A DNA stretch of 64,000 nucleotides, from NCBI GenBank assembly GCA_017309275.1, contig JAFKLT010000044.1, positions 1 to 64,000 of the forward strand, given 5' to 3'. Both the position numbers and the translations under genes were made by a program. The stretch is from Sphingomonadales bacterium (GTDB lineage: Bacteria > Pseudomonadota > Alphaproteobacteria > Sphingomonadales > Sphingomonadaceae). The notes beneath the pieces were generated by a model. The model had not been told where the DNA came from, made no database searches, and worked only from the letters and a program-made list of their open reading frames with translations. Positions 44,242 through 61,485 of the stretch are shown one piece after another; the first letter of the stretch is position 1; every line of letters begins with the position of its first letter.

Positions 44242-44281
44242 GCAAATCTCACGGTCGCCGCCGGCGTGGTCCTTTCCCTTC

Positions 44282-44335
44282 AGAGGGAGAGGGCTGCGCC
44301 GGAGCCATGACGGGCTGAGAGCCGGGAGAGAGTCT
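44282..44335 (+). promoter_or_regulatory. Conserved leader element 2 (before ParB-like gene)
   Basis: AGAGGGAGAG, TGACGGG, a stem GGCT/AGCC and CCGGGAGAGAGTCT in the same order as 42971-43022. One T-A pair in the first copy is C-G here, as expected if the stem matters. Confidence 0.6.
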
Positions 44336-44362
44336 CGCGGCGGCCTGTCATGGAGAAGCATC

Positions 44363-46480: not shown

Positions 46481-46498
46481 CGCCACCGACCATCGTTC

Positions 46499-46534
46499 GG
46501 GGAGTTCGGCGCTGTGCCGGGCTCCCCATTTTTT
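46499..46534 (+). terminator. Rho-independent terminator
   Basis: GGGGAG pairs with CTCCCC around an inner CGGC/GCCG stem, followed by ATTTTTT. It starts 19 bp after the ParB-like stop and closes the DUF932-ParB transcript. Confidence 0.92.
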
Positions 46535-46668
46535 CGCTGGCCCTTGAAATCAGGACGCTCCGCTCGAACATCGGAGGTGTCCGCCAGGGGCTGCCAGACC
46601 GCCGCGTGCCTTCCTGACCCGTTCCTCCGGGCAGGATCGCACGCAGCCTGTCTTCTGAAGGAGGCCCC

Positions 46669-47703
46669 ATGTCGAGTCCTGCAGCCGAGGTCGCGCGACG
46701 CCTCGCCGACGATGCCGAGGCGGTATGCCGCCGATATCTCTCCCATGGACGCCGCGAGGGACATAATTGGATGGTCGGTGACGTCCGTAATTCGCCGGGC
46801 CGCAGCCTTTACGTTCGCCTTTCTGGCACCGCCGACGGTCTTCGGTCCGCTGGCAAATGGACCGATGCCGCCAGCGGCGATCATGGCGATCTTCTCGATG
46901 TCATCGCCGCGAGCTGCGGCCATACATCCTTCCGCGACACGCTCGACGAGGCGCGCCTCTTTCTGAGCCTGCCTGCGGTCATGCCCGGCGACCGAAACCC
47001 GGCTCCGCGTAAAGCACCGCGTGGCACCCCCGAGGCCGCCCGCAGGCTATGGGCCGGATCGAAGCCGCTCAGCGGCACCCTTGCCCGCGCCTATCTGTCT
47101 GCCCGCGCGATCGGCGACCTTCGCGATGCCGAGTGGCTTCGTTTCCATCCCCATTGCTTCTATCATCCATCCGAGGACGACGCCCCCGATGTCCGCCGGG
47201 CCTGGCCCGCCCTGATCGCGGCGGTCACCGACGAGACGGGAAATGTCACCGGGGTCCATCGCACCTGGCTTGACGTCGCCGCCTGCGACAAGGCGCCGGT
47301 TGCCTATCCGCGGCGCGCCATGGGCCAATTGCTTGGTCATGGTGTTCGGTTCGGCGCGTCGGCTGCGGTCATGGCGGCGGGCGAAGGCATCGAAACCATC
47401 CTGTCCTTGCGGCAGATCACCCCGGCCTTGCCGATGATCGCCGCCCTTTCGGCAGCCCATCTAGGAGCGCTGAACTTTCCCAGCGGCCTGAAGTGCCTGT
47501 ATGTCGCGCGCGACGACGACCCGGCGGGTGCGGCCGCCTTTGCGACGCTTTGCGACCGAGCCCCGCCGCTCGGCATCGAAGTCATCGGGCTCGAAGCGGA
47601 TCGGGGCGACTTCAACGCCGATCTCATGACACTCGGCCGGCAGCGGATGATCGGCTCGCTTCGATCCCAGCTCCGGACTGCTGACCTTTCACTCCTGCTC
47701 TGA
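46669..47703 (+). CDS. Toprim-domain protein (DUF7146-type primase/helicase-like)
   Basis: A 344-residue protein with N-terminal RREGHNWMVGDVRNSPGRSLYVRLSG, typical of mobile-element primases, then a Toprim domain with GEGIETILSLRQ and LYVARDDDPAGAAAF. It probably acts in replication or transfer of the element. AAGGAGG precedes the ATG. A typical zinc finger is not evident. Confidence 0.87.
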   Translation: MSSPAAEVARRLADDAEAVCRRYLSHGRREGHNWMVGDVRNSPGRSLYVRLSGTADGLRSAGKWTDAASGDHGDLLDVIAASCGHTSFRDTLDEARLFLSLPAVMPGDRNPAPRKAPRGTPEAARRLWAGSKPLSGTLARAYLSARAIGDLRDAEWLRFHPHCFYHPSEDDAPDVRRAWPALIAAVTDETGNVTGVHRTWLDVAACDKAPVAYPRRAMGQLLGHGVRFGASAAVMAAGEGIETILSLRQITPALPMIAALSAAHLGALNFPSGLKCLYVARDDDPAGAAAFATLCDRAPPLGIEVIGLEADRGDFNADLMTLGRQRMIGSLRSQLRTADLSLLL

Positions 47704-47826
47704 CGGCTCAGCATCGGCCGGAAGGAAGGCGGGTGAGGGAAGGACCGGCGCTGATGCAGCACCACCGGGTGGCCGCGCTCCGGCCTTCGCAAGAGGGCGA
47801 CTGCGGCGAGCCGCACCGGGCCCGCA

Positions 47827-47906
47827 ATGGCGGGCGGGCGGCTATTTTCCGCAGGGGCGCGGGGCGCCCCTTTGCATCGCGAAACAAAATAGCCTTCGCC
47901 CGCCAT
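47827..47906 (+). repeat. Long imperfect hairpin in the 5' leader of the DUF2493 gene
   Basis: Arms 47827-47848 (ATGGCGGGCG ... GGCTATTTT) and 47886-47906 (AAAATAGCC ... CGCCCGCCAT) pair over about 19 positions; the loop includes a second GGGGCGCCCC palindrome. It sits in the 317-bp gap before DUF2493, which holds no gene I can support. Confidence 0.7.
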
Positions 47907-48020
47907 CCTCCGCCTTCGGCTTCGGCCGCGGCCTGGGCCACGGTGCAGTTCGGTACGGCGCGCCGCGAGTGGTCGCCGCGAAGGCCGCGCGAGCGCGGCA
48001 AAACCCGACTGGAGACGATC

Positions 48021-48953
48021 ATGTTGAGCCCCACCGAACCCGCCGACGATCCTGCCGACGCCGGCGCCACCCATCTCCTCCTTCAGGAGATGCAGCTCTT
48101 TGGACATCGCCCCTTCGAAGACGAACCCGACCCGCGCCCGCTGCCCGATGCCCGCCTGGCGGCCGGCGCTGTCGCTGATATCTTCGATGCGCTGGCCGGC
48201 TGTCTCGACGATACGCGGATAGAGCCCGATCTCGAAGAGCTCCTCTGGAACGTCGTCAACCTCTTCCACCGCGCGGGGGAGCGGGTCGAACGCAGCCTCG
48301 ACGACAATGAACAGGCGCAGCGCCGGGCCCAGCGCGAACAGGACGGCAGCGAGATCCGGTCGGTCGAGCTCGAACGCCTCGTGCAGCAGGGGATCAGCCT
48401 GATCGAACGGCGCGACGCGATGGAATTCTTCCGCGAGAGCGCCGCCGAACAATTTCGGACCCATTGCCGCAAGGCCTGGTCACCGCGCGCCGGATCGCGC
48501 GCGCAGCACCGGTCGATGACTGCGGCCATGATCGATAGCCGCGACTTCCTCGACGCGCGGTTGCGCCAGAAAGCGGCTGCACTTCTTCCCGAGGGCACGC
48601 GCATCCTGTTCACCGGCGGCGCCGATGTCGACGATCATAGGGCGATCTGGGATGCTCTCGACCGCGCACGCGACCGCCATCCCGATATGATCCTGCTCCA
48701 TGGGGCGACGCCGACAGGGGCCGAGCGCATCGCCGCCTGCTGGGCCGAAACCCGCAAAGTGACGCAGGTGGCCTTCCGGCCCGACTGGAGCCGCCATGGC
48801 AAGTCCGCGCCGTTCAAGCGCAACGACCGGATGCTCGAAGCGCTGCCGGTCGGGGTCATCATCTTCCCCGGCACCGGCATTCAGGACAATCTCGCCGACA
48901 AGGCTGCGAAGATCGGCCTTCCAGTCTGGGATTTTCGCAAGCGCGGCCGATGA
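48021..48953 (+). CDS. DUF2493 (SLOG-like) protein
   Basis: A 310-residue protein whose C-terminal ~130 residues (RILFTGGADVDDHRAIWDALDRARDRHPDMILLHGATPTGAERIAACW) form the DUF2493 Rossmann-like SLOG domain. The N-terminal half is helical and family-specific. The ATG at 48021 follows TGGAGACGATC. Common on sphingomonad plasmids and ICEs; SLOG domains often bind nucleotide-derived ligands, so a sensor role is possible. Confidence 0.85.
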   Translation: MLSPTEPADDPADAGATHLLLQEMQLFGHRPFEDEPDPRPLPDARLAAGAVADIFDALAGCLDDTRIEPDLEELLWNVVNLFHRAGERVERSLDDNEQAQRRAQREQDGSEIRSVELERLVQQGISLIERRDAMEFFRESAAEQFRTHCRKAWSPRAGSRAQHRSMTAAMIDSRDFLDARLRQKAAALLPEGTRILFTGGADVDDHRAIWDALDRARDRHPDMILLHGATPTGAERIAACWAETRKVTQVAFRPDWSRHGKSAPFKRNDRMLEALPVGVIIFPGTGIQDNLADKAAKIGLPVWDFRKRGR

Positions 48954-49011: not shown

Positions 49012-49034
49012 CGAATATATTTGAAATATATTCG
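49012..49034. promoter_or_regulatory. Perfect AT-rich 23-bp palindrome upstream of luxR
   Basis: Arms CGAATATATTT and AAATATATTCG around a single central G give a perfect 11-bp dyad, 59 bp after the DUF2493 stop and 162 bp before luxR. It stands out against GC-rich surroundings and has no T-run, so it is more likely an operator than a terminator. It does not match a typical lux box. Confidence 0.65.
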
Positions 49035-49196: not shown

Positions 49197-49940
49197 ATGC
49201 CGACGATGGACGCTGCGCATGCTTTTGCGCTCGACGTCACGCGGGTGAAGGATGCGGCGGGTCTGGCCGATCTGCTGGCGGAAGCGTGTGCGCGCATGGG
49301 CTGTTCCTGGTTCGCGCTGAGCCATCACGTCGACTTCCTCGCCGCGCCGGACAGGGGCGTTCGCGTCCACAACTATCCCGAGGACTGGGCGCGCTGGTTC
49401 GACGAGCGCGGCCTTGGACTCACCGATCCGGTGCATCGTGCCAGCCACCGCAGCCTCGAAGGTTTCTTCTGGCGCAACATGAAGCCGCTTTCGGGCGAAC
49501 GCCCTGAGGACGAACTGGTTCTCAGCGAGGCGCAGCGGCACGGGATCGGTGACGGGCTTACCATACCGGCGCACATCCCGGGCGAGGCGCATGGCTCGGT
49601 GTCCTTCGCCTGGACGCCTGGGATCGCCGCCAATGATATGGCGCTGCTCTTTGCTAGAATGATCGGTGGGCCGGCCTTCGAAGCCGCGCGCCTGCTCGCC
49701 AATCCCGAACTCGCGCAGGTCGGGCCGCGGCTGACGGACCGCCAGCGCGAATGCCTGATCCTGTCGGCCAAGGGGAACAGCGCTCCGAAGGTCGGACGGA
49801 TCCTCGATCTCAGTCCCGACACGGTTCGCGAGCATCTTCGCAACGCGCGGCAGCGTTACGACGCGAATGGCGGGATCACGCTGACGGTGCGCGCGCTTTA
49901 TGCCGGCGACCTCAGCTACGAGGATATCGCCAAGCGCTGA
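49197..49940 (+). CDS. LuxR-family autoinducer-binding regulator
   Basis: A 247-residue regulator with an N-terminal AHL-binding domain (YPEDWARWFDERGLGLTDPVHRASH, keeping the conserved Trp and the DP pair, FFW and HGIGDGLTIP) and a C-terminal HTH (LTDRQRECLILSAKGNSAPKVGRILDLSPDTVREHLRNARQRY). The usual binding Tyr of the AHL pocket is Phe here. It lies directly before the AHL synthase on the same strand and likely senses its product. Confidence 0.92.
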   Translation: MPTMDAAHAFALDVTRVKDAAGLADLLAEACARMGCSWFALSHHVDFLAAPDRGVRVHNYPEDWARWFDERGLGLTDPVHRASHRSLEGFFWRNMKPLSGERPEDELVLSEAQRHGIGDGLTIPAHIPGEAHGSVSFAWTPGIAANDMALLFARMIGGPAFEAARLLANPELAQVGPRLTDRQRECLILSAKGNSAPKVGRILDLSPDTVREHLRNARQRYDANGGITLTVRALYAGDLSYEDIAKR

Positions 49941-50031
49941 ACTTTTTTCGCCGACACCCCCCGATCGTGCTATGGTGGAGCGGCAAAAAGCCGTTCAATT
50001 GGATGGTCTCTTTCGAAAAGGAGACACATCC

Positions 50032-50649
50032 ATGCTTTCGGTAATCGACCATTCCAACCGCGCGAACGAGCATCAATTGCTTCGCGCGATGTTCGAGGCG
50101 CGCAAGCGCGTCTTCATCGATCTTCTGAAATGGGACCTGCCGGTGCTCGCCGACCGGTTCGAGATCGATCATTTCGACGATCCCCACGCGACCTATCTGA
50201 TCGTCGGCGACCAAGACGGCGGGCATCTCGCTTCGGCGCGCCTCCTTCCCACCACGCGCCCGGCTCTTCTCGATGGTCTCTTCCCCGGCCTCGTTAACGG
50301 CATCCCGCCGTCCGGTCCCGACATCTTCGAAATCACCCGCTTCTGCCTGTCGCCGGGGATCGGTGCGCGCCAGCGCCGCACCGCGCGCGACACGCTTCTT
50401 GTCGGGCTGGTCGATTATGCGCTCGCCAACGGCATCCGCTCTTACACCGGTGTCGCCGAGCTCGACTGGTTCGCGCAGATCCGGACCTTCGGCTGGGACT
50501 GCACGGCGCTCGGCGAACCCGGCATTTACGACGGCCGCGCGCTGACCTCGCTGCGGATCGAGATCGACGCCGACACCCCCGCAAGGCTCAAGGCGGCGGG
50601 GATTGTTTCGGGCAGCGCCGCGACACCGGTCGCGGCCGACGCAGCGTGA
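50032..50649 (+). CDS. LuxI-type acyl-homoserine-lactone synthase
   Basis: A 205-residue AHL synthase. The conserved residues are visible: EARKRVFIDLLKWDLP (Arg, Phe, Trp), EIDHFDDPHATYLIV, SARLLPTTRP and EITRFCLSPG with its Glu and Arg. GGAG at the right distance precedes the ATG. The next gene, a dioxygenase, starts 13 bp after the stop. Confidence 0.94.
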   Translation: MLSVIDHSNRANEHQLLRAMFEARKRVFIDLLKWDLPVLADRFEIDHFDDPHATYLIVGDQDGGHLASARLLPTTRPALLDGLFPGLVNGIPPSGPDIFEITRFCLSPGIGARQRRTARDTLLVGLVDYALANGIRSYTGVAELDWFAQIRTFGWDCTALGEPGIYDGRALTSLRIEIDADTPARLKAAGIVSGSAATPVAADAA

Positions 50650-50662
50650 AAGGAGCGGGGCC

Positions 50663-51574
50663 ATGATCACCAATATCGCTCCAGTCGATAGCCATCAGCC
50701 ACCCTCTGCTCCGATGCGGGCGCTCAAGGAAGACGGCTATGCGATCGTCCGCAACGCCGTTCCCGCCGAGTTGATCGCGGCGATCGATCGCGACCTCGAT
50801 CCGCGCTACGCCGCGACGCCCTTTTGCGAGGGCGGCTTCTATGGCGAGCGCACCAAGCGCTTCGGCCGCCTGCTCATCCGCTCGCCGCACGTCGGCGCGC
50901 TCGTCATGAACCCGGCGATCCTCGCTCTCGCCGAGGCCGCGCTCGGCGACTGGTGCGAGCGTATTCAGCTAAATCTCGCCCAGGCGATCGAGCTGCATCC
51001 GGGAGCGCTTCCGCAGTTCCCGCATCGCGATCAAGATATGTGGCAGGGCACGCTCGGAGAAGTCGAGTATCTCGTGAACGTGATGTGGCCGCTGACGCCC
51101 TTCACCACCGAGAATGGCGCCACGATCATCTGGCCGAAAAGCCATGGGCTCGAGGCGCTCGTCGAGGAGCCGGCGGAAGAGCCCATTGTTGCCGAGACCG
51201 TGCCGGGCGATGCCATCATCTTCCTGGGTTCGACGCTGCACGGCGCTGGCGGCAATTGCAGCCCGTCGGTTCGGCGCGGGATCATCATCAGCTACTGCCT
51301 CGGCTGGCTGAAACCCTATGAGAACCAGTGGCTCGCCTATCCGCCGGACGTCGCGAAGGACTTTCCACCCGAGCTGGCGGCCTTGACCGGTTATGTCCAG
51401 CATCGCCCAAATCTCGGCAACTTCGAGGGTCAGTGTCCCTCGATCCTATTCCGCGGCTATCCCCCTGACCCGATCGCCGCCGTGGATGCGCTCCGGCCCG
51501 ATCAGCAGGCGCTTCTTGCCGACTATATCGGCGACCGACGATCGGCGGGCGGAGACGGGACGCTCGCGGCATGA
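50663..51574 (+). CDS. Phytanoyl-CoA-dioxygenase-like Fe(II)/2OG oxygenase
   Basis: A 303-residue PhyH-family protein. The metal-binding facial triad is recognisable as HRD in FPHRDQDMWQG and the second His in STLHGAGGN; the Arg that holds 2-oxoglutarate is in VRRGIIISYCLGW. Its position directly after luxI suggests modification of the AHL side chain or another linked metabolite. Its stop overlaps the GntR start by ATGA, so the two are coupled. Confidence 0.88.
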   Translation: MITNIAPVDSHQPPSAPMRALKEDGYAIVRNAVPAELIAAIDRDLDPRYAATPFCEGGFYGERTKRFGRLLIRSPHVGALVMNPAILALAEAALGDWCERIQLNLAQAIELHPGALPQFPHRDQDMWQGTLGEVEYLVNVMWPLTPFTTENGATIIWPKSHGLEALVEEPAEEPIVAETVPGDAIIFLGSTLHGAGGNCSPSVRRGIIISYCLGWLKPYENQWLAYPPDVAKDFPPELAALTGYVQHRPNLGNFEGQCPSILFRGYPPDPIAAVDALRPDQQALLADYIGDRRSAGGDGTLAA

Positions 51575-52209
51575 GCCCGGGCACCACGATGGAGCGGGTC
51601 TATCTGGACCTCAAGGCGCGTATCCTGTCGGGCACCTATCCGCCCGGTACGCGCCTAGAGGCGGCGCAGCTCGCAAAGTCGCTGGCGGCCAGCGCTACCC
51701 CGGTTCGCGACGCCCTGTATCGCCTGTCGGGCGAGCGGATTATAGAGAGCTGGCACCAGGAGGGGTTTCGGCAGCCCCTCCTCAATGAGGCGGACTTGGT
51801 CGAACTCTATTGGTGGACCGGCGCTCTCCTTTCGCTGGCGCTGAAAGGGAGGACGCCGAGGCCCGATTTGCCCGGTGGTCTAATCTCGCTCGCGAATCAC
51901 CAGGCCTATCCCGAGGGACTCGATGGCCTCTTCCGGACCATTGCAATCGGCAGCAGCAATGGCGAACTTCGCGCTTCCATCATCAATTGTGTCGAGCGAA
52001 GCATGACATTCCGCACATTGGAGGCTCGTGTCGACGGGTCCGCCAATGATGCGCTCACCGCGATGGCGGACGATTACCGGTTCGGCCGATGGAGCGCTTT
52101 GCGCAGCAAAATCACGCGCTTCCATCGCCGCCGCGCCTCCTATGCCGGCCGTGTCGCGGCCGAGATCCGGCGGCGGTCCGAGCCGCTGGATAATATTCGG
52201 AGAATATGA
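51571..52209 (+). CDS. GntR-family transcriptional regulator
   Basis: A 212-residue regulator with the GntR winged HTH (MERVYLDLKARILSGTYPPGTRLEAAQLAKSLAASATPVRDALYRLSGERIIE) and a helical C-terminal sensor domain. It starts inside the dioxygenase stop and ends 80 bp before the lasso precursor, so it may control the lasso operon. A short palindrome (52193-52207) lies at its very 3' end. Confidence 0.87.
   Translation: MSPGTTMERVYLDLKARILSGTYPPGTRLEAAQLAKSLAASATPVRDALYRLSGERIIESWHQEGFRQPLLNEADLVELYWWTGALLSLALKGRTPRPDLPGGLISLANHQAYPEGLDGLFRTIAIGSSNGELRASIINCVERSMTFRTLEARVDGSANDALTAMADDYRFGRWSALRSKITRFHRRRASYAGRVAAEIRRRSEPLDNIRRI
52193..52207. promoter_or_regulatory. Palindrome ATATTC-GGA-GAATAT before the lasso precursor
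   Basis: A 6-3-6 inverted repeat overlapping the GntR stop, 83 bp before the precursor start. It shares the GAATAT half-site with the 49012-49034 palindrome but in the opposite arrangement. A GntR or LuxR operator is a possible reading. Confidence 0.4.
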
Positions 52210-52289
52210 GTCGTATTTAATTCTTATACGGCGCGGCCTCCCTAGCTTTGAAGGGGCCGCAATTCCGCGGCATCATGGAGGAAACGATC

Positions 52290-52412
52290 ATGGATCGCGA
52301 AACCAACGACCTCGTCGAGCTCGGCAGCGTCAGCGCAGACACCCTCGGCGATTTCGGCCCCCCGGTCGAAATCGGCGGGAAGGACCTGCAGAACGGCATC
52401 AGCCTCGACTGA
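52290..52412 (+). CDS. Lasso peptide precursor
   Basis: A 40-codon gene missed by length filters. Residues 1-19 (MDRETNDLVELGSVSADTL) form a leader with the conserved Thr at position -2. The core is 21 residues: a ring GDFGPPVE, in which the alpha-amine of Gly1 can bond with the side chain of Glu8 (the only acid at positions 7-9), followed by the tail IGGKDLQNGISLD. The leader ending LGxVSxDT plus Gly1 is typical of proteobacterial lasso precursors. GGAGGAA precedes ATG 52290; ATG 52275 is the alternative start. Candidate plug residues in the tail are Lys12, Leu14 and Gln15. Confidence 0.88.
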   Translation: MDRETNDLVELGSVSADTLGDFGPPVEIGGKDLQNGISLD

Positions 52413-52467
52413 GCCGATCGTTCGGGTGTCGGCGCGACCCGCCGGCACCCGGATACGGTATGATGCG

Positions 52468-53118
52468 ATGAGCTGGAAACTCGCGCCCGGCGTGGGCTTT
52501 TGCACCGTTGGCCCGGATATGATCTTTCTCGATCTCCGGCGCGACCGCTACTTCCTTATGACCGATGTCCGGCGCGCGGCATTCGATCGGCTCCTCGCCG
52601 GCGAGCCCAATGACAGCGATGCTATGACGCTGCTCGTCGACACCGGCCTGTTCGTGCGCAGCGATTTGGGGTTTCGCATCGAGGCGCCCGCATTCGACGT
52701 TCCGGCAGACGATCTCAGCCGCCCGGACTCCAGGCGGAGCGGCCTTCGATCGATCTTCGGCGCCTGGTGCGCATTGGCTTGGGCGGCGCGGGCGCTGAAG
52801 CCCGACCGGCTACCTTCGACCATAGAGCAACTGCTCCGCGACAAGCTGCTTCTGGACAGAAGCGGGCAAGAGAGTGAACTGCGAGCGTTGGGGACGGCAT
52901 TCGCCCGCGCGCGGACCTTCGTTCCGATTGCGCCGCGGTGCCTTGTCGATTCGCTCGCCCTATACCGGATGGCCCTGCGCAGGAGCCTCGCGCCAACGCT
53001 GGTCTTCGGAGTGCGCACCAATCCCTTCGCGGCGCATTGCTGGCTCCAGTCGGGCGCATGTGTCCTGACGGGAACGGCGGAGGAAGCCCGAAACTATCAG
53101 CCGATTCTGGTCGTATGA
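52468..53118 (+). CDS. Lasso peptide B protein (RRE plus transglutaminase-like peptidase)
   Basis: A 216-residue fused B protein. The N-terminal ~80 residues (MSWKLAPGVGFCTVGPDMIFLDLRRDRYFLMTD) are a PqqD-like RRE that binds the leader; the C-terminal part is the Cys-protease-like B2 domain that cleaves it. The Cys is in APRCLVDSLALYR and the His in NPFAAHCWLQSG. The Asp normally about 12-13 residues after the His is absent: the segment reads VLTGTAEEARNYQPI. It overlaps C by ATGA. An earlier in-frame GTG at 52426 is a less likely start. Confidence 0.88.
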   Translation: MSWKLAPGVGFCTVGPDMIFLDLRRDRYFLMTDVRRAAFDRLLAGEPNDSDAMTLLVDTGLFVRSDLGFRIEAPAFDVPADDLSRPDSRRSGLRSIFGAWCALAWAARALKPDRLPSTIEQLLRDKLLLDRSGQESELRALGTAFARARTFVPIAPRCLVDSLALYRMALRRSLAPTLVFGVRTNPFAAHCWLQSGACVLTGTAEEARNYQPILVV

Positions 53119-54807
53119 TGCGGCGCGCTATCCTCGGGTTTCTGGGCGGCGACCCTTTGGCGACAGATCTTGCGTTGGCAGCCGGTAGGCATGGTCTGAG
53201 TTCGTTGGACCCGCTCGTTCCAAACCTGGCGCTTTTCGCAGGTAAAGGCATCGGTATCGCGCTCCGCGATCCGGGACGCCTGGTTCTCGGGGATTGCTTC
53301 GAGGATTCCGCCTCGACCGCTTGGGGCAATTATCTCGAGTTGATGGCGGACCAGGCCGAAGGCCTGACGATCAGCCGGGCTCCGATCACCGGGATGCCGT
53401 TATACTGGCTGGAGGCGGCGGGAGGAGTTCTGCTCTTCTCGCACCTCGAGCTGATTGAAGGCCTGGACGTAGCGCTCTCGGTCGATGAGGAATATCTTCG
53501 TTACCTCCTGTCATTCAGCAACTTTCGCACGGCGAGAACTGGGCTGTCGGGGGCCCAGGAGCTTCTGCCGGGAACGGCGCTCATCCTTGGCCGCGGCATT
53601 CCGGCAACTGAGACGTTCTGGTCGCCATGGCCGCATGCGCGAGGTCGCGTGGGCGAAAGTGATGCCCCCATGCTTCTTGAGCAACGCATTCGCGCATGCG
53701 TTACTGCTTGGGCCAACAGTCGCGACAGCATCGTTGTCGAGTTGTCCGGCGGCCTCGACAGCTCGATCGTCGCCGCGGCGTTGGCGCAGGGCGGACACAC
53801 CTTTTCCGCCGCGACGATCGCGACTGCCAGCCCCGATGGCGACGAACGACGCTTTGCTCGCGCCGTCGCCAAAAGCTGCGGCATCGACCTCGTCGAATAT
53901 GTGCATGGCGACGCTGTGCTCGACCTCACCGCAGGCCCCGCGTTCCTGGCACCGCGCCCGGCAACCTATGGCGTCCTCGCGGGGATCGACGCGGCTCTCG
54001 GTTCCGCGACCAATGAGATGTCGGGGGGGCAGCATCTTTACCGGGATCGGTGGAGACAATGTCTTCGCGATCAATCGGTCGATCATGCCGGCGCTCGACG
54101 CGTTGCTCTCGCTCGGTCCGCGCCCGCGCAGCCTTGCCGCTCTCGGCGACTGCGCTCGCCTCTGCAATGCAACCGTCTGGAGGGCCGCACGGGCCGTCTG
54201 GCGGCAATGGCGCGCCGGACGAGATGCCGATTGGCCTCGCGACGATGGCTATTGCGTGCGGACCATGCTCCCCGATGAGCCGTTGGCGCGCCCATGGGAC
54301 GAGGTCGTGGATGACCTTCCTGTCGGCAAGATCCGTCACGTCCAATCCATCCTGCGCATTGGCGACTTTCTGGATCGTCCCGGGCGCTGGTACGGACGCG
54401 ATGTCGTCGCGCCGCTGTTGTCGCAGCCGCTGGTCGAGCTTTGTCTCGCGATTCCGTCTTGGGCTTGGGTCGCCGGCGGCCGCGATCGGGCGGTCGCCCG
54501 TGCGGCCTTTGCAGACCATCTCCCCGGCATCGTCGCCTGGCGCCGCAACAAGGGACGGCTCGAGACGATGTGCGCCGAAGCGTTCCTGGCGCAGCGCCGC
54601 GCCCTTGCGCGGATATTGCTGGAGGGTCGGCTCGCACGCGAGGGTCTGATCGATCGGGACAGGGTTGAAGCCTATCTGGCGCGCGAGCGGATCGAGGGCG
54701 ACTATGACTATTTCCGCTTGCTCGAACTCGCCGATATCGAGCTTTGGATAGTATCGGTCGCCGGCTTGGGCGCCGGGAAGTTCAGGCCGGTCCAACGCGC
54801 ATATTGA
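53115..54807 (+). pseudogene. Lasso cyclase (asparagine-synthetase-like C protein), frameshifted
   Basis: The first part (53115 to ~54029) has a glutaminase-like N-terminal domain without the catalytic Cys and the ATP-pyrophosphatase loop VVELSGGLDSSIVAA. The reading then breaks: at 54023-54029 a run of seven G follows NEMS. With six G the frame would continue as GGSIFTGIGGDNVFAINRS, the expected C-protein motif, and on to the end at 54807 (LLELADIELWIVS). Apart from this +1 shift both halves are intact and together give about 563 residues, typical for lasso C. This could be a sequencing artefact in a homopolymer, a true null mutation, or programmed slippage. Confidence 0.82.
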
Positions 54808-56678
54808 TCTGCCTTGGCAGGATCGGGATCGATGTAGCCCTGCAGCCAGAAGCGGAACCAGTCGAGGTTGCGCTGGTACACAGCAAGCTTCTGTCTCGGC
54901 TCGGCCTTGATGTGCGGGGCGAAGGGAAAGACGTGGAGTTCACCCTTTCCGCTCGCGGAGAGGCGGGCCTGCAGCTCGGGCGAAAGTCGGGCCTCCTGCT
55001 CCGGGAGCTGCATCAGCACGACGGCGGTGATCTTGTCGACCTGGAGCGAGGGCGAGCGCCGCTTCCAATCGGCTGCATCGATGTCGGGCGCGCCGAGACC
55101 CCATTGAGTCTCGAGATTCTGGCGGAAGAAATCGCGTCCGATGCCGGCGTTGAACCAGTAATAGGCGGGCTCGGCCTGCACCGACGCGATCGAGACCGCA
55201 CTCAGAAGCTTGCTGTGGGTCGCTGTCCACATCGCAACCTCGCTGCCGAAACTGAGACCGCCCATCCCGACGCGGCCGGGGTCGACAAGCCCGCGGCGAT
55301 CCAGCTCCGCTACAGCAGCGCGCACCGCTGCGAGGCCCAGCTCATAACGGGCTTCGGCTTTCGCCCCGCCCGATGGCAGCTGGTTGATGCAAAGCGCGGC
55401 AATCCCGCTGGCGGCCAAGGCGCGAAGTGGCCACTCATTGCCGAGCCCGCCGCGAAGGTAACCGGCGCAGCGATAGTAAGTGATGAAAAGCGGCAGCCGT
55501 CCGGGGAACTTCGGGCGGACGAGCCAACCCGACGCACGGCTGCCGCCCACCTGCCACTCGATCGCCTCGGTGAGAAGATCGTCGTGGTCAGGAAGGTCGT
55601 TGGGTCGGTCGAGGACGAGGGTCCCGCTGCCATCCAGCGCAATTCGCTGCAGTTGTGGAGGCATGGCGGCGCTCTCGGCTACGCAGAAGGCCGCCGTTTG
55701 CGACGCCGCACATGGCGCCATCTCACCGCCGCCGCTCAAAAGGCCTGGGCTGGCCGCGAGGCGCGTCAGGCCGGTCGCCTTACCCCAGAGAAAAACGCTC
55801 TGACGAACTTTCCGGTCGCGCGTCGTCACCACGAAACGTCCATCGCCGACTGCCATTCCCTTCCAGATTTTTGGCGCGTCGGGATCGCCGCAGGGTGCTT
55901 CCACAGCGCAGATGCCGGCTTGCGACGCGGCCGCGCGAAAAGGCTCGGGAAGCGGTTGCGGCGATGGTCGGAGAAGCTCCGCCTCGATAGCGTGGGCGGG
56001 TCGCTCTCTCGCCGTAGTCGGATCCCGACGAACAATCTGTCGCGGCAATCGGTCGAGGAGCGCCTCCCGATCGAACCAGTCGCCATTGAGACGCTGGCTT
56101 GCGGGTCGGCCCGCGATCATTGCCCCTCGATAAAGCGTCTGCGCGAGATCGACCCGTCCATCGGCCAAAATGCCGCTGTCCCGCTCATTCTCTTCGGCCC
56201 GCGCGATCGCGGCACGCGAGGGCCCGAGTTCGAATATGATGCCGCCATCGGGGGCGACTGCAAAGCGTTCGATATCGGCGTCGCGAACGATCAATGGTGC
56301 GAGGGCGCCGCTGGGGCGGCCTTCCCATAGTCCCGTGGCGCCGTCCACCCGCGCGCGGAAATAGAAGCGGTCGCTTTCCGGCGACCAGGCGGCTGAGCCC
56401 GCCTCGACGATCCCGGTTCCATTCCAGCTCGCATGGCCGCCATCGCCGATCCTCCGTGGCGGTGTGGCTCCATCGGTGCCGACGAGATACCAGGCGGTCT
56501 CAATCTGTCCGCTCATGGTCGACGGGCGCTCGCGGCGGTAGAGCAGCCAGCGCCCGTCGGGAGAGACCGCGAGCCCAGAAAAGTCGGTCATCTCTACGAG
56601 CTCGCGGGGACTTGTCTGGGCGGCGGCCGGCGAAGCCGCCGCAAGGAAAACCGCCGCCCAGACCGCTTGTCTCACCAC
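54708..56678 (-). CDS. Lasso peptide isopeptidase (AtxE2-type)
   Basis: A 656-residue secreted prolyl-oligopeptidase-type enzyme with a signal peptide (AAASPAAAQTSP), a beta-propeller-like N-terminal part (SGLAVSPDGRWLLYRRE) and an alpha/beta hydrolase C-terminal domain. The nucleophile sits in GGLSFGSE and the His in FAPHIKAE, as in lasso isopeptidases that reopen the macrolactam ring. The start is GTG, overlapping the receptor stop by 7 bp, so it belongs to the same transcript as sigma, FecR and TonB receptor. Its 3' end overlaps the C gene on the opposite strand by 100 bp. Confidence 0.88.
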   Translation of the reverse strand: MVRQAVWAAVFLAAASPAAAQTSPRELVEMTDFSGLAVSPDGRWLLYRRERPSTMSGQIETAWYLVGTDGATPPRRIGDGGHASWNGTGIVEAGSAAWSPESDRFYFRARVDGATGLWEGRPSGALAPLIVRDADIERFAVAPDGGIIFELGPSRAAIARAEENERDSGILADGRVDLAQTLYRGAMIAGRPASQRLNGDWFDREALLDRLPRQIVRRDPTTARERPAHAIEAELLRPSPQPLPEPFRAAASQAGICAVEAPCGDPDAPKIWKGMAVGDGRFVVTTRDRKVRQSVFLWGKATGLTRLAASPGLLSGGGEMAPCAASQTAAFCVAESAAMPPQLQRIALDGSGTLVLDRPNDLPDHDDLLTEAIEWQVGGSRASGWLVRPKFPGRLPLFITYYRCAGYLRGGLGNEWPLRALAASGIAALCINQLPSGGAKAEARYELGLAAVRAAVAELDRRGLVDPGRVGMGGLSFGSEVAMWTATHSKLLSAVSIASVQAEPAYYWFNAGIGRDFFRQNLETQWGLGAPDIDAADWKRRSPSLQVDKITAVVLMQLPEQEARLSPELQARLSASGKGELHVFPFAPHIKAEPRQKLAVYQRNLDWFRFWLQGYIDPDPAKADQYARWTGLNFPAPKPATDTIQSSISASSSKRK

Positions 56679-59602
56679 CGGATCGTGGCCTGCAGCGAGA
56701 TGGTGCGTCCGAGCGGATTCGCCTTTTCGGGGTCATAGGCGAGCGCCGATGTATTGGTCCGGTTGTTCACATAGGGCGGATCGCGATCGAACAGATTGAG
56801 GATGCTCAGCCCCAGTTGCAGGCCGCGTTCATTGTCATCACCGCCGAAGCGTTGGGCGAGGCTGAGGTCGAACGTTGTCCAGGACGATACGCGCTCCGGG
56901 ACCGCGGGGATCTGGTTGAGATAGCCGCCGACATAGTTGGCGAAGAGGGTCGCCGCAAAACCTCCGCGCGACCAGCCGGCGCGTCCGCGCAGCCGCCACT
57001 TCGCCGGATTTGCGAATGTGCCCACGACGTCCACCGCCGGCGTGCCCGGCGTAAGCTGCCGATTGATCCGGAAGATGTGGCTTCCCGACAGACCAAGGTC
57101 AATCTGGCCGCCGGCGAGTTCCGTTGCGTAGCCAAGATCGAAATCGAGCCCGGTCTGGCGCATGGCGGACAGGTTGCGGACCTGACCGTCGAGAATGGCA
57201 TCGACATCGCCCGGCGCGAGGCCAAGCGGATTGGTGAAGGTCGGGAACGAGAAATAATAAGCGAGAAGTTCGGCCGACGGATTCTCGGTTACCACGCCGC
57301 CGAACAGGTCGCGGCGGGACAGGAAGCGAAGATAATCCTCGCTGACCGAGCCGATACGGTCGCGATAGTCGACATCATAATAGGTGACCGACGCTTTAAG
57401 CCCGCGGATCGACGGGGGCGCGACGTCGAGGCCGACCGTCCAGGTGGTAGCTTTCTCCGGCTTGATGCCGGGACCGTAGCCGAAGAGCCCGATGACGTTG
57501 GCGGTGCCTGTCGGCGAGCTCGGGTCGGGTACGCGCAGCGTCGTATAGTTCGAGACAGCCGGGCCAATCAGTTCGTCGAACGCAGGTGCGCGGAACGAGG
57601 TCCCGTAGCTGCCGCGCACAGCAATGCCGGGGAGCGCTTCCCAGCGGAGCCCGAGCGTCGGGTTGGTCGTGCGCCCGACGTCGCTATAGTCCTCGATCCG
57701 GCCTGCAAGCGAAAGGTCGAGCCGCTCGATGCCGGCAACGCTGTTGTCGGGACCAAAGAGCGGCACGAGAATCTCGGCATATGCGGAGCGTACGTGGCGC
57801 GGCCCCGGCAGCCCGGTGAGCGCGGTAGTGCTGGGCGTCGCACGGCTCAGGTCGTTGACCGTGAAATTCTCATAGCGTTCGCGGCGGTACTCGGCGCCGA
57901 AGGCGACCCGGATGTCGCCGCCGGGCAGGCGAATGAGCGAACCATCGACGCGAAGCGCCGCGGACCAGCTTTCATAATCGTCGCGCGATCCGATGCTTCC
58001 GCGAATGGCCGCTATGGTCGCGGGATTGTTCGCGGTTCCGTTACCGAAAACATTGAATGCCGTCGCGCGGTTGGTGTCCGCGATCGCCGCCGCAAGGCGC
58101 GCGCGGTTCGGAATGTTGATACTGTCGCTCCGGCTCTTCTGGCGCCCATAGGCGCCGCCAAGCTGGATCCGCCACGCGCCGATCGCCTGCTCGAGGCTGG
58201 CCGAACTGCTGATGCCTCGCACCCGTCCCGTGTCGATGGGCGCGCCGAGATCATTCGCGAAATTATAGTTCACGCTGACTTGTTGCCGCGTCCCGATAGG
58301 ATCGACGTAGAAGGGGTTGGTCACCGGCACCCGCACGATGCTGAGATACTGGTTGAGCGCAACTTTCCGATAGTCGCGCTGCGCAGCGAGCGTGCTTGCC
58401 CGGAACGTGAGGCTGTCCGTAAGGTCGAACTCGAGCGCGGCATAGGCGCTGTGGATGCGCTGGCGAGGAAGGAGATCGCTCGCCGCGCGGCGGTCTCCCG
58501 GATTGCGAGTTCCAGCGACGAGCTGGCCCGGAGTCAGCGCCGTCCCGTTCTGCCCGGCCGGAATCGCGAAGGTCTGCCCATTAGCCGCGGTGATCGTCCC
58601 CGGCACGGCGAACAGCGAGCGGTAGTCCGGCCCACCGAATGGACGCAGGTCTTCGGTCGCAAAATCCCGGTCTGCTGCGGCAAGCGCGTCCCGTTGGCTG
58701 AACTGGTAGGCGAGCACGAGATGGCCGCGGTCCCATTTTCGTCCGAATAGCTGGCCGATCTGGACTTCGCCCATATCCCCATCAGCGGTGCCGACCCGAA
58801 AGAGGGTTTCGGCTCCCTCGAACTGGTTCCTCAGCCGGATGTTCACGACGCCGGCGACAGCATCGGCTCCGTAGATCGCCGAGGCGCCATCGGTCAGGAT
58901 CTCGACCCGGTCGATCGCGCCTAGCGGGATCAGCGATACGTCGGCGAATACGCCTCCTAGCCCGCCGAGGGCGGGCCTGCTGCCGTCGATCAGAACAAGG
59001 GTCGAGGATGGGCCCAGTCCGCGCAGGTTGACGCTCGAACCATAGGTGCCGTCGGTTCCCGCGCCGTTTCGAGTGGTCGCTCCGAGGGTCGTCTCGTTAG
59101 GTCCGCCCGCAAAGGATTGCGGGAGCGCTTGAAGAAGCTGCTGCACCGATCCCGTGCCGCTCTTCTCGATATCGGCGCGACCAAGCGTGACGACTGGCGA
59201 TCCCACCGGTCCGGCGCCGCGAATGCGCGTGCCGGTCACAACGATCGCTTCGTTGACCCCGTCAGTCGATCCCGCCTCCGCCGCATCGCCGTTTCCCGCG
59301 CGCAGCACCCACGCGCCTTCCACCAGTTCAATGGTCAAGCCTGTGCCGGAAAGGAGGCGGGAAAGGGCGGCGTCGGGAGAGAGGCGCCCGCGGACACGGT
59401 TGCTGCGTCGGCCTTCGAGCAGGCTCGAAGCCGCGATGACCTCGCGGCCGGAAATGTCCGAATATTTGCGAAGTGCGTCGCTAAGGCGCTGGGCCTCGAT
59501 ATTGTATGTCAGCTCGCCCGTCTGCGCGCACGCGCTGGGTGCATAGAGTGCGGTCGCCGATACGCCCGAAGCCAGAACGGCCGCGAAAAATTTCATCGTC
59601 AT
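56672..59602 (-). CDS. TonB-dependent receptor with STN signalling domain
   Basis: A 976-residue outer-membrane receptor with a signal peptide (APSACAQTG), an N-terminal STN domain (LTYNIEAQRLSDALRKYSDISG ... TIELVEGAWVLRAG) that passes signals to FecR, a plug (VVTGTRIRG ... GADAVAGVVNIRLR) and a beta-barrel ending in the aromatic LQATIRW. Its position next to the isopeptidase suggests it imports the lasso peptide. GGAGGGA precedes the start. Confidence 0.92.
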   Translation of the reverse strand: MTMKFFAAVLASGVSATALYAPSACAQTGELTYNIEAQRLSDALRKYSDISGREVIAASSLLEGRRSNRVRGRLSPDAALSRLLSGTGLTIELVEGAWVLRAGNGDAAEAGSTDGVNEAIVVTGTRIRGAGPVGSPVVTLGRADIEKSGTGSVQQLLQALPQSFAGGPNETTLGATTRNGAGTDGTYGSSVNLRGLGPSSTLVLIDGSRPALGGLGGVFADVSLIPLGAIDRVEILTDGASAIYGADAVAGVVNIRLRNQFEGAETLFRVGTADGDMGEVQIGQLFGRKWDRGHLVLAYQFSQRDALAAADRDFATEDLRPFGGPDYRSLFAVPGTITAANGQTFAIPAGQNGTALTPGQLVAGTRNPGDRRAASDLLPRQRIHSAYAALEFDLTDSLTFRASTLAAQRDYRKVALNQYLSIVRVPVTNPFYVDPIGTRQQVSVNYNFANDLGAPIDTGRVRGISSSASLEQAIGAWRIQLGGAYGRQKSRSDSINIPNRARLAAAIADTNRATAFNVFGNGTANNPATIAAIRGSIGSRDDYESWSAALRVDGSLIRLPGGDIRVAFGAEYRRERYENFTVNDLSRATPSTTALTGLPGPRHVRSAYAEILVPLFGPDNSVAGIERLDLSLAGRIEDYSDVGRTTNPTLGLRWEALPGIAVRGSYGTSFRAPAFDELIGPAVSNYTTLRVPDPSSPTGTANVIGLFGYGPGIKPEKATTWTVGLDVAPPSIRGLKASVTYYDVDYRDRIGSVSEDYLRFLSRRDLFGGVVTENPSAELLAYYFSFPTFTNPLGLAPGDVDAILDGQVRNLSAMRQTGLDFDLGYATELAGGQIDLGLSGSHIFRINRQLTPGTPAVDVVGTFANPAKWRLRGRAGWSRGGFAATLFANYVGGYLNQIPAVPERVSSWTTFDLSLAQRFGGDDNERGLQLGLSILNLFDRDPPYVNNRTNTSALAYDPEKANPLGRTISLQATIRW

Positions 59603-59689
59603 TCGTCCCTCCCGTGCGGCCGATTTTGGCCGTCTGAAGGGAAAAAATGACGGGTGCTCCGAACACCCTATGGGTTTTTCTTGGGTGCC

Positions 59690-60610
59690 CTACTCGGATT
59701 TCGCGCCCAGAATTGGTCCGTTCGCACCGAACTCGACCTTGAGATCGAGCGCGGCGCCGAGCTTCAGTGCAAGTTTCCGGGCATCGGTCATGTCGAAGCG
59801 CCCCGTCACCTGCAGCGATGCCAACGCCGGATCGGCCAAGCTGATCTTGACGCCATTCTCGCGGCCCGCGCGGTCGAGAATCGCACCAAGCGGGAGATTG
59901 TCGGCCCACAGCGATTTGGCCGGGGCGTTCGCCTCCTCGCTCTTGATCGGCTGGGGACCGGTCGACCTGACCTCGGCGCGTTCGCCGGGACGGAGGCGAA
60001 GTGCCTTTCCGCCTTCGAGGCGCCGCACTTCGACCGAGCCTTCGACCAGCGCGATGCGCGGAACATCCGCGCGGAGATCGACCTCGAAGATGGTGCCGAG
60101 CGCGCGCGTGACCGAATCTCCCGCCTCGACGAGGAAGGGACGCGACGCGTCGTGTGCGACCTCGAACCTGGCGCGGCCGTCATGCAGAATGACGCGGCGT
60201 TCGCCGTCCGAGAAGCGCGTCTCGATGCGGGCGCCGTCCATCAGCGTCACGCGCGTCCCATCGGCGAGCTGGCTCTCGCCTTGCGCCGAATTGGTGGCGA
60301 TGATCGGCTGATCGCTGTCGCGACCGAGCAGATACCATGCGAACCCGACCGCGATCACCGCGGCGAGTATCGTCGCGAATGCCCATCGCCGCCCGCCGGG
60401 TTCTCGCTCCCGGGCATCGGCCCGCACATCGGAGGCGATCCGTGCAGTCGACATGTCTCCCGCCCAAGTCCAATTGTCGCGCGCTTCGTCATAGGCCTTG
60501 GCATTGTCCGGCTTCGCCAGCCACTCGTCGAACGCTTCCCGGTGCAGCTCGGCATCGGGGCCCATCATCTTGTCGAGCCAGGCGGTGGCTTCGCTCTCGG
60601 CGCGGCTCAC
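59690..60610 (-). CDS. FecR-type anti-sigma regulator
   Basis: A 306-residue inner-membrane protein: a cytoplasmic DUF4880 N-terminus (ATAWLDKMMGPDAELHREAFDEWLAKP) that binds the sigma factor, one membrane span (FATILAAVIAVGFAWYLLG), and a periplasmic FecR domain ending in an STN-like segment. It overlaps the sigma gene by ATGA and precedes the TonB receptor, forming a classic cell-surface signalling trio. Confidence 0.9.
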   Translation of the reverse strand: MSRAESEATAWLDKMMGPDAELHREAFDEWLAKPDNAKAYDEARDNWTWAGDMSTARIASDVRADAREREPGGRRWAFATILAAVIAVGFAWYLLGRDSDQPIIATNSAQGESQLADGTRVTLMDGARIETRFSDGERRVILHDGRARFEVAHDASRPFLVEAGDSVTRALGTIFEVDLRADVPRIALVEGSVEVRRLEGGKALRLRPGERAEVRSTGPQPIKSEEANAPAKSLWADNLPLGAILDRAGRENGVKISLADPALASLQVTGRFDMTDARKLALKLGAALDLKVEFGANGPILGAKSE

Positions 60611-61185
60611 TGCTTACCCCGCGCGCGTTTGATGGCCGCAAGGGCTTTGGTCATGTGGCTTTCGACCGTCTTCACGCTGATTCCCTTGATTCGAGCGATC
60701 TCGGGATAGCGTAGTCCTTCGAAGCGATGCATCAGGAAAATCTCGCGCGTGAGCGGAGATAGCCTCGAAATGGCTCTTTCTGCCCGGCGCAGGACGTCGC
60801 GCGCCTCGAGCGCGGCGTGCGGGTCGCTTGATCCCGCATGTTCATCGCTGAAGCTGTCGTGCTGTGACCGGTGACGGCGCCCGTCGGCGCGACCATATTC
60901 GGCGAGCAGCATCCGGGCGCTCTTCACGAGATAGGCGCCGGGGCCTTCGACCAGCGCAGCGAGGCCGCCGCGCGCACTCGCAAAGCGGCTGAAGACTTCC
61001 TGCACAAGGTCGCCGACATCCTGGGTCGGCGCACGGCTCTTGAAGAAGCGGATTATTTGCGGCCGGTGTTCGGAGTAGATCGCCTCGATGCGCGCCGAGC
61101 GCCCGACCCGCTCCCAATCCTCTGGCGGCAAGGGATCGCCGCCGGCAACACCGGGTCGCTCGCTGTCCTTGTCCTCGAAGTCCAT
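60607..61185 (-). CDS. ECF sigma-70 factor
   Basis: A 192-residue ECF sigma factor with region 2 (IYSEHRPQIIRFFKSRAPTQDVGDLVQEVFSRF) and region 4 (RLSPLTREIFLMHRFEGLRYPEIARIKGISVKTVESHMTKALAAI). The ATG at 61185 (MDFEDKD) is preferred over an upstream TTG at 61251. It is the first gene of the sigma, FecR, receptor, isopeptidase unit. The 300 bp upstream (61186-61485) holds its likely promoter and no gene. Confidence 0.9.
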   Translation of the reverse strand: MDFEDKDSERPGVAGGDPLPPEDWERVGRSARIEAIYSEHRPQIIRFFKSRAPTQDVGDLVQEVFSRFASARGGLAALVEGPGAYLVKSARMLLAEYGRADGRRHRSQHDSFSDEHAGSSDPHAALEARDVLRRAERAISRLSPLTREIFLMHRFEGLRYPEIARIKGISVKTVESHMTKALAAIKRARGKQ

Positions 61186-61485
61186 ACCTGCCGCCTTCCC
61201 GTTCGGGACAAAGGCGGCAAGCCGGGCGTTGAGAACTTGCTTAGCGAACAAGCGCCGCCGCCTTTAGCCCGAGGGCTTGGACATGCGCAGCGGCCACCCG
61301 GCAGGATGGAATAGGAAAACTAAGCTAAGCAGGTTCTCACGCCTGGCACCGTGCGCCTTGCCCGATGCACTTCAAAGCATAGCCTTGCCGCTGCGGCATG
61401 CAAGCCGACTGCACCGAGATAGATCCAGATCGAGTCTATTCTCCGGAAACGACGGCAGAAGAGCTTCGGTGCTGCCGGGCGTCGA

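Follow-up and report, generated by a model that had tools for sequence, protein, structure and literature searches.

A putative dedicated quorum-sensing locus for an exchangeable lasso peptide in Sphingomonadaceae, possibly wired through a GntR relay

A luxR-luxI gene pair runs directly into a lasso peptide operon in the window (the whole 64,000-nucleotide stretch of Sphingomonadales DNA analysed here), and we propose, leaning only slightly in its favor, that this arrangement represents a dedicated quorum-sensing locus for an exchangeable lasso peptide, common to many Sphingomonadaceae and wired through a GntR relay. Coupling of the two systems is supported by their linkage across the genus, where 95 of the 126 luxI genes in 80 genomes lie no more than 25 kb from a lasso B gene (about four pairs would be expected by chance under uniform placement with one 4.2-Mb sequence per genome), by the two set layouts into which 91 of these 95 linked genes fall, and by the source genome itself, in which all three luxI genes are lasso-linked.

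Sequence reading and profile searches confirmed the head-to-tail plus-strand order luxR-luxI-phyH-gntR-lasso A-B-C (49197-54807) that a sequence-only reading had proposed, with every gene supported by a family profile match; the claimed gaps of 13 bp between luxI and phyH and 80 bp between gntR and A, and the ATGA overlaps of phyH with gntR and of B with C, were likewise recovered (Table 1). That reading had taken C for a single gene ending at 54807, whereas its frame is broken near 54023-54029, and had closed the cluster at the same point; the genes it placed there are present, but isopeptidase, TonB receptor, FecR and FecI genes, next on the opposite strand, also belong to the cluster. The locus holds the precursor A, protease B and cyclase C (interrupted in the window) of an isopeptidase-type lasso cluster, together with an Atxe2-family isopeptidase scoring above the curated cut-off. 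The core of precursor A is predicted to start where the Thr(-2), Gly1, Glu8 rule, which we assume to hold here, places it.

Table 1. Features of the quorum-sensing and lasso peptide locus in the window
Feature	Position	Strand	Evidence
LuxR-type AHL receptor/regulator	49197..49940	+	Pfam Autoind_bind 2e-24 and GerE
M1, probable lux box of luxI promoter	49955..49975	+	Motif conservation and co-variation with LuxR helix
LuxI-type AHL synthase	50032..50649	+	Pfam Autoind_synth 3e-19
PhyH-like Fe(II)/2-oxoglutarate dioxygenase	50663..51574	+	Pfam PhyH 4e-22
GntR-family regulator, proposed relay to lasso promoter	51571..52209	+	Pfam GntR HTH 6e-15
M2, operator-like motif of lasso promoter	52212..52230	+	Conserved motif upstream of A
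Dyad in lasso A leader, just 5' of ribosome site	52256..52271	+	Conserved in part of luxI-lasso loci
Lasso precursor A, predicted core GDFGPPVEIGGKDLQNGISLD	52290..52412	+	Subterisin 2e-8; benenodin 33.2 bits (cut-off 33)
Lasso protease B	52426..53118	+	lasso_biosyn_B2: Transglut_core3 and NF033537
Lasso cyclase C, frame interrupted near 54023-54029	53115..54807	+	Two pieces each match Asn_synthase
Atxe2-family lasso isopeptidase E	54708..56678	-	NF033523, 474 bits (curated cut-off 400); AtxE2 5txc
TonB-dependent receptor, STN + plug + barrel	56672..59602	-	Pfam; identity profile
FecR-type regulator	59690..60610	-	Pfam FecR
FecI-type ECF sigma factor	60607..61251	-	Pfam Sigma70_r4_2

The sequence-only reading had named conserved synteny as its own check, and the neighborhood is indeed conserved: besides the linkage across the genus, LuxI, PhyH, GntR and lasso B/C occur together in the stretch examined at 51 of 79 named loci (duplicates L001-L003 and L083 were excluded here and from the ATGA, M1, M2-shuffle, GntR-presence and leader-dyad counts, with other near-duplicates, the same contigs entered twice, retained in these counts and in the C-frame and identity comparisons). 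Within the genus, 31 of 126 luxI genes are unlinked, as are 57 of 149 lasso B genes, which lack a luxI in the 25 kb around them. By eye, no luxI-lasso coupling on one contig was seen in 284 genomes of the class from other families, among which draft contigs could hide pairs. Candidate "LuxR-solo" lasso clusters at L109 and L110 were set aside, since what they encode is a GerE-HTH protein with likely membrane segments rather than an AHL receptor.

LuxR carries autoinducer-binding and GerE domains and adjoins luxI, as in AHL quorum sensing, and the LuxI translation carries R24, F28 and W34, residues called absolutely conserved in the available text of PMC3704786. One LuxI set excluded L001-L003, L104, identical LuxI rows and LuxI matches shorter than 150 aa. 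Upstream of luxI lies a lux-type dyad, M1, of which the window copy is imperfect. This site is the sole match in the genome at up to three mismatches; across the genome, M1 patterns matched the three luxI promoters plus two weaker sites, and the same pattern search gave no match in its lasso promoters. With a matrix trained on the same loci that were counted and a search limited to 70 bp, an M1-type site was found in 92 of 94 GntR-linked luxI loci, where it precedes the LuxI profile match by 101-121 bases, vs 9 of 28 loci without GntR. M1 is probably a lux box because it co-varies with the LuxR recognition helix (TVREHLR in the window): in a set excluding M1 scores ≤9 and the duplicates L001-L003 and L083, helix residue E goes with CC at M1 bases 2-3 (14/15), Q with TC (15/18) and R with TG, TA or TT (13/14). 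LuxR would accordingly be expected at M1, as judged from these patterns, though GntR columns rank first in co-variation for M1 bases 1, 2 and 10. We also considered M1 as a GntR box, suggested by an M1-like dyad seen by eye upstream of A in L107, L111 and L119, which have GntR and no LuxR; this was dropped, as the three represent one or two related cassettes, their dyad lies further upstream, and the LuxR helix tracks M1.

Between the signal genes and the lasso operon, phyH encodes a protein in which H121, D123, H193 and R204, presumably ligands, do not vary across 29 sequences, and whose closest solved chains are PrhA/AusE. GntR has an N-terminal GntR helix-turn-helix, as the FadR/FCD group does, and the Pfam search returned no match past it, where that group would carry an FCD effector domain. 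GntR is present in 84 of 87 luxI-lasso stretches, and it is a plausible relay because gntR and phyH share an ATGA overlap at 83 of the 92 loci. The lasso promoter bears a motif, M2, unlike M1 in sequence, 72-98 bp before A. In leave-one-out scoring, M2 beat no fewer than 99 of 100 shuffles at 41 of 50 luxI-lasso loci and failed at 9. Co-variation of M2 with LuxR or GntR columns, for which 3 of the 50 (M2 score ≤8) were left out, pointed clearly to neither regulator. The window copy is the sole genome match at up to three mismatches, a reversed control pattern also giving one match, and M2 patterns found the three lasso A promoters only. M2 lies beside gntR in one of the two layouts and about 10 kb from gntR in the other, preceding A in both. 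M2 also occurs at L122 and L123, where no LuxR or GntR was found close by. L141, with GntR and no luxI found in its genome, was dropped as support for M2 after failing the shuffle test. Allowing up to two mismatches, 18 of the 48 non-redundant luxI-lasso loci carry the dyad of the lasso A leader.

Downstream, a TonB receptor with an STN domain, FecR and an ECF sigma factor make up a Fec-type cell-surface signalling set. In 14 locus pairs LuxR and LuxI are at least 90% identical but B and C less than 60%, with FecR at 96-99% in 13; in the identity profile the flanks are near-identical, and the receptor diverges from just after its STN domain. Lasso A-B-C, the isopeptidase and most of the receptor thus look as if they were exchanged between strains as a block. 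Because this product block seems swapped between constant sensing flanks, peptide, cleaving enzyme and receptor body may form matched specificity sets, and a constant circuit with exchanged peptide genes suggests crowd-controlled, strain-specific peptides.

We propose the following sequence of events. LuxI would make an AHL, and LuxR-AHL bound at M1 would switch on luxI-phyH-gntR and close a positive feedback loop; GntR, whose translation would keep pace with that of phyH, would act on M2 of the lasso operon (we infer both this action and its sign), so that cell density would reach the lasso peptide through the relay and its production would depend on AHL. The peptide would be exported and then recognised by its own TonB receptor, whose STN domain may signal to FecR and FecI for more receptor and isopeptidase, and the isopeptidase would open the imported peptide. 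The unit exchanged while the sensing flanks stay would be a matched set made up of precursor, B, C, isopeptidase and receptor plug/barrel.

A relay through GntR appears somewhat more likely than direct AHL control, given the near-universal GntR, its overlap with phyH and the enrichment of M1 at GntR-linked loci. We have marked it down because the M2 test failed in GntR-bearing lasso clusters without luxI: among 12 non-redundant examples 11 fail and the twelfth, L118, stops at a contig end, which means that having GntR does not by itself entail having M2. The nine M2 failures, L122/L123, the lack of a clear co-variation partner for M2 and the GntR columns that lead at three M1 bases also count against the relay. 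The sequence-only reading had envisaged AHL-dependent lasso production; a dedicated coupling stands on synteny and linkage, but AHL acting directly on the lasso promoter does not, with M1 at luxI and another motif at the lasso promoter. Under such direct control LuxR-AHL would itself bind M2, with GntR a separate metabolic gate or repressor. We consider this unlikely yet a serious contender, as M2 follows luxI over GntR (41/50 luxI-lasso loci vs 1/12 GntR clusters without luxI) and sits, by eye, where a class-II activator could; against it, M1 and M2 differ, M1 is the motif that tracks the LuxR helix, M1 patterns miss the lasso promoters of the source genome, and L122 and L123 have M2 with no LuxR found nearby.

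The unlinked luxI and lasso B genes, and the interrupted C of the window, count against a dedicated locus. The genes might instead be uncoupled neighbors that co-travel, for example on mobile elements, with the lasso operon under FecI or nutrients, and a DUF7146/Toprim gene with its neighbors upstream in the window and many relatives, the 57 lasso B genes without luxI and the linkage unseen in the 284 non-family genomes would fit this; the set layouts that cover 91 of the 95 linked loci, the gntR-phyH ATGA coupling, and an M2 kept both beside gntR and about 10 kb away make it improbable. Least probable is that the window strain no longer makes its lasso product and that luxRI serves other targets. 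The split C (separate Asn_synthase matches at 53115-54017 and 54049-54804) would agree with such decay, but the break lies at a run of seven G and may reflect misassembly, L056 and L118 carry the same 40-residue precursor with C in one frame, and the idea is silent on other loci; of 118 stretches with both C parts, near-duplicates retained, 115 keep them in a single frame, the exceptions being the window, L033 and L172. A dedicated locus with a GntR relay remains our preferred reading.

The locus resembles alphaproteobacterial isopeptidase-type lasso clusters (astexin, benenodin, sphingopyxin I/II) in its A, B, C, Atxe2-type isopeptidase and TonB receptor, and differs from them in that luxRI-phyH-gntR forms part of it. 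One lasso cluster of the source genome is nearly identical to a cluster with a structure-solved isopeptidase, and the L091 isopeptidase matches 5jrk/5jrl (1,659 bits), which we take to be that of sphingopyxin I; one AHL-linked cluster is presumably the sphingopyxin I cluster. Fec-type cell-surface signalling is a known system that likewise combines a TonB receptor with STN, FecR and FecI, whereas here the exchange seems to have affected plug and barrel and left STN and FecR in place. Quorum-sensing-controlled antibiotic clusters with their own luxRI exist, for example in Burkholderia, and there too signal genes adjoin the product cluster; in the present locus the product is instead a lasso peptide, accompanied by receptor and cleavage genes of its own, a GntR may serve as intermediary, and strains seem to have swapped the product block. 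Novosphingobium luxR-luxI loci have phyH adjacent in four of five cases, as here, and phyH was proposed to lie in a quorum-sensing-regulated operon, but the available text of that account names no gntR or lasso cluster, and "lasso" and "asparagine synth" are absent from it (PMC3704786). Searches of an open-access library turned up no published description of AHL genes linked to lasso clusters; quorum-sensing terms are absent from the available portions of PMC11006600, PMC5067487, PMC7549694 and PMC13352647, and that of PMC8498205 names quorum sensing once, in a general sentence.

Tentatively, and as a possibility rather than an expectation, the locus may represent a two-layer crowd-and-kin system, in which the AHL circuit sets when, and the exchangeable block which, peptide is made and heard, the peptide being a strain-specific second signal or a guarded carrier acting through STN-FecR-FecI. 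Neither what isopeptidase-type lasso peptides do in nature nor what triggers them is, to our knowledge, settled, and a dedicated AHL circuit ahead of many lasso clusters would provide a cheap, testable trigger for silent clusters. Matched sets of peptide, enzyme and receptor would make partner prediction and kin-recognition tests possible and, were the two-layer reading true, several such circuits could run in parallel per cell, three of them here.

The gene order luxR, luxI, phyH, gntR and lasso A (precursor), B (protease) and C (cyclase), read head to tail on the plus strand in the sequence-only reading of the window, was borne out with its spacings; the end of the cluster had been drawn too early, as an isopeptidase, a TonB receptor, FecR and FecI come next on the minus strand. 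The predicted core of the precursor is GDFGPPVEIGGKDLQNGISLD, with its boundary set by what we take to be the usual Thr(-2), Gly1, Glu8 rule. Lasso C has an apparent frame break and its two parts each match Asn_synthase separately in a profile search, sharing one frame in 115 of the 118 stretches having both (the exceptions are the window and the compared stretches L033 and L172). Directly 5' of the locus lies a set of ORFs also found beside many related loci, a recurrence that hints at a mobile or integrated element.

Sequence features of the lasso and quorum-sensing loci
Feature	Stretch	Position	Remarks
ParB-like ORF (by eye), DUF7146/Toprim protein, further ORF	window	44024-48953	directly 5' of the locus
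AT-rich inverted repeat	window	49012-49034	11-bp arms, ~160 bp 5' of luxR; partly retained in other Sphingopyxis loci
Motif M1	window	49955..49975	luxI promoter
Short inverted repeat	window	50006-50025	across the luxI ribosome site
Motif M2	window	52212..52230	lasso A promoter
Seven G	window	54023-54029	near the apparent frame break in lasso C
phyH and gntR in one open frame	L027	10693-12165	either a natural fusion or a sequencing error
Small GerE-HTH protein, probable membrane stretch	L109	2110-2619	before gntR, luxI-less lasso cluster
Small GerE-HTH protein, probable membrane stretch	L110	2659-3177	before gntR, luxI-less lasso cluster

A LuxI scan of genome contigs gave 79 loci from the best 80 of 83 matches, nearly all with titles that place them in the sphingomonads (by title, L081 is placed no more closely than in the alphaproteobacteria, and L029 and L063 no more closely than in the Proteobacteria). 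Within this best 80 of 83, profile annotation placed PhyH, GntR and lasso B/C together in 51/79 loci, PhyH and GntR with no lasso gene in the stretch in 9/79, PhyH alone in 12/79, none of the three in 4/79 and other combinations in 3/79. Across 80 genomes of the source genus, holding 126 luxI and 149 lasso B genes, 95 of the luxI have a lasso B at most 25 kb away, compared with about 4 expected under uniform placement, leaving 31 luxI and 57 lasso B unlinked at that distance. Linkage was seen for 15 of the 52 luxI in 119 family genomes, compared with about 0.7 expected, so the coupling is commonest in the source genus. A class sample of 289 genomes includes 284 from outside the family, and in none of these was a luxI-lasso pair seen on one contig. 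The conserved synteny across strains that the sequence-only reading proposed to look for is present, and the luxI-lasso coupling is real and conserved.

Linked luxI of the genus fall mainly into two layouts: type 1, that of the window, in which luxI and lasso B share a strand and B lies 1.2-3.2 kb downstream (58 luxI), and type 2, in which B lies 8-14.5 kb downstream and reads the other way (33 luxI); four were placed in neither. Type 1 made up 43 of 86 stretches in one comparison; in all 43 a loose pattern picked out an A-like ORF lying between gntR and lasso B, and a stricter pattern found lasso A in 73 of 77 luxI-lasso stretches. The source genome has three luxI genes, each in luxR-luxI-phyH-gntR beside a lasso cluster, which is type 1 in the window and type 2 on both other contigs, C74 and C32. 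The C74 cluster shares ten proteins, at 97.9-100% identity, with stretch L091, whose isopeptidase matches 5jrk/5jrl, which we take to be the sphingopyxin I isopeptidase, over 738 residues (1,659 bits); the cores of L091 and a further stretch, L092, are presumably sphingopyxin I and II.

No paper linking AHL genes to lasso clusters was found in the accessible text of open-licence PMC papers, and as most subscription papers lie outside that scope, the coupling can only provisionally be called undescribed in the literature found. In the text available for each, luxI-phyH linkage is reported with no match to 'lasso' (PMC3704786); a lasso cluster from a Sphingomonas, which includes an isopeptidase and a TonB receptor, is described with no match to quorum, LuxR, GntR or homoserine (PMC11006600); three lasso regions are reported in a Sphingopyxis with no match to quorum (PMC6771000); and one Erythrobacter carries both lasso and homoserine-lactone clusters, whose adjacency is not stated there (PMC9723273).

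M1, a dyad 18 bp long whose copy in the window is imperfect, precedes the LuxI profile match by 101-121 bases. Of the 94 GntR-linked luxI loci, 92 have a scoring site, compared with 9 of 28 without GntR, a contrast that leans this way as the matrix was trained on GntR-linked loci; in three of those nine (L011, L031 and L058) the stretch ends at most about 2.2 kb downstream of luxI. Among 51 LuxR representatives, a recognition-helix Glu accompanies CC at M1 bases 2-3 in 14/15, Gln accompanies TC in 15/18 and Arg accompanies TG, TA or TT in 13/14, the other four having Thr, His or an unreadable helix. Uncorrected for kinship, the top-ranked column belongs to LuxR for 10 of 13 variable M1 positions and to GntR for three (bases 1, 2 and 10), and six of the ten LuxR-led positions (bases 3, 4, 11, 12, 13 and 15) are tied to helix columns 197-204. 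One M1 variant agrees at 12 of 18 positions with what we take to be the TraR box. M1 is probably the lux box. The inverted repeat across the luxI ribosome site, with like repeats seen by eye before luxI elsewhere, possibly provides translational control.

GntR is present in 84 of 87 luxI-lasso stretches, in 12 of 20 luxI-less lasso clusters sampled from the 57 of the genus, in 5 of 24 such clusters sampled elsewhere in the family and, among luxI loci lacking lasso genes, in 1 of the 15 sampled from 31; this distribution and the ATGA overlap of phyH and gntR (83 of 92 loci) tie gntR to the luxI operon. PhyH, which resembles PrhA/AusE and in the window retains His121, Asp123, His193 and Arg204, accompanies luxI even in the absence of a nearby lasso cluster, and because it stays with luxI either way, our guess is that it acts on the signal rather than the peptide. 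In a LuxI tree of 98 rows, a 79-row set bounded by a weakly supported split takes in 60 of 62 rows with lasso and GntR, plus 11 with GntR only, seven with neither and one with lasso only; a supported 10-row set lacks both. In the luxI-phyH loci L126-L128, L131-L133, L135-L138 and L140, neither gntR nor lasso genes nor an M1 box was found, and those in the tree form a set of their own.

M2 lies 72-98 bp 5' of lasso A in both layouts, next to gntR in type 1 and some 10 kb away from it in type 2. In leave-one-out scoring, 41 of 50 loci outscored no fewer than 99 of their 100 shuffles. Across the whole source genome, M1 patterns match the three luxI promoters and two 2-mismatch sites and M2 patterns the three lasso A promoters only; reversed controls of both gave no match except one for window-type M2. 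Because this search did not find M1 at lasso promoters and gntR sits within the luxI operon, GntR is the first candidate reader of M2, with a roughly even chance of being so. Against it, 11 of the 12 luxI-less clusters that carry GntR do not pass the M2 test; their GntR proteins are more distant, 23-32% identical to that of the window in the six aligned, and so may read another site. LuxR, with AHL acting directly on the lasso promoter, is the second and distinctly less probable candidate. Of 20 non-redundant luxI-less lasso clusters, four pass the shuffle test: L118, which reaches a contig end, L170, about 21 kb from a luxI, and L122 and L123, in whose stretches no LuxR or GntR was found and whose genomes hold other luxI genes, making control in trans possible. 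A relay in which LuxR would activate luxI-phyH-gntR, and GntR would in turn act on the lasso promoter, seems somewhat more likely than direct AHL control, and AHL dependence is itself a prediction.

In 200-base bins, identity of the window to L004 is 88-98% up to about 52300, at A, falls to 35-68% and returns to 90-97% at about 59300-60300, where the L004 stretch ends; L007 has the same edges with 45-76% between, the drop against L005 starts already in gntR, and L056 stays at 76-100% throughout. The right edge falls near receptor codon 100, directly after STN (56-101) and before the plug (135-252). Pairwise protein comparison of 20 chosen type 1 loci gave 14 pairs with LuxR/LuxI at least 90% and B/C below 60% identical, 13 of them from six loci (the window, L004, L005, L007, L056 and L167) with FecR 96-99% and the other with FecR 49%; over 136 pairs, LuxR/LuxI identity correlates with that of FecR at r 0.85 and with that of B/C at 0.21. 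The reverse pattern, a shared block with differing flanks, is the weaker one: among these 20, no pair with a LuxR/LuxI identity of 85% or less reached 80% in B/C, but L005 and L020 share 91% in GntR, 82-89% in C and 84% in the receptor versus 76% in LuxR, 72% in LuxI and 54% in FecR. The final 16 residues of the precursor take 64 distinct forms among luxI-lasso stretches. The product block, from A-B-C through the isopeptidase to the receptor plug and barrel, appears to have been exchanged between strains.
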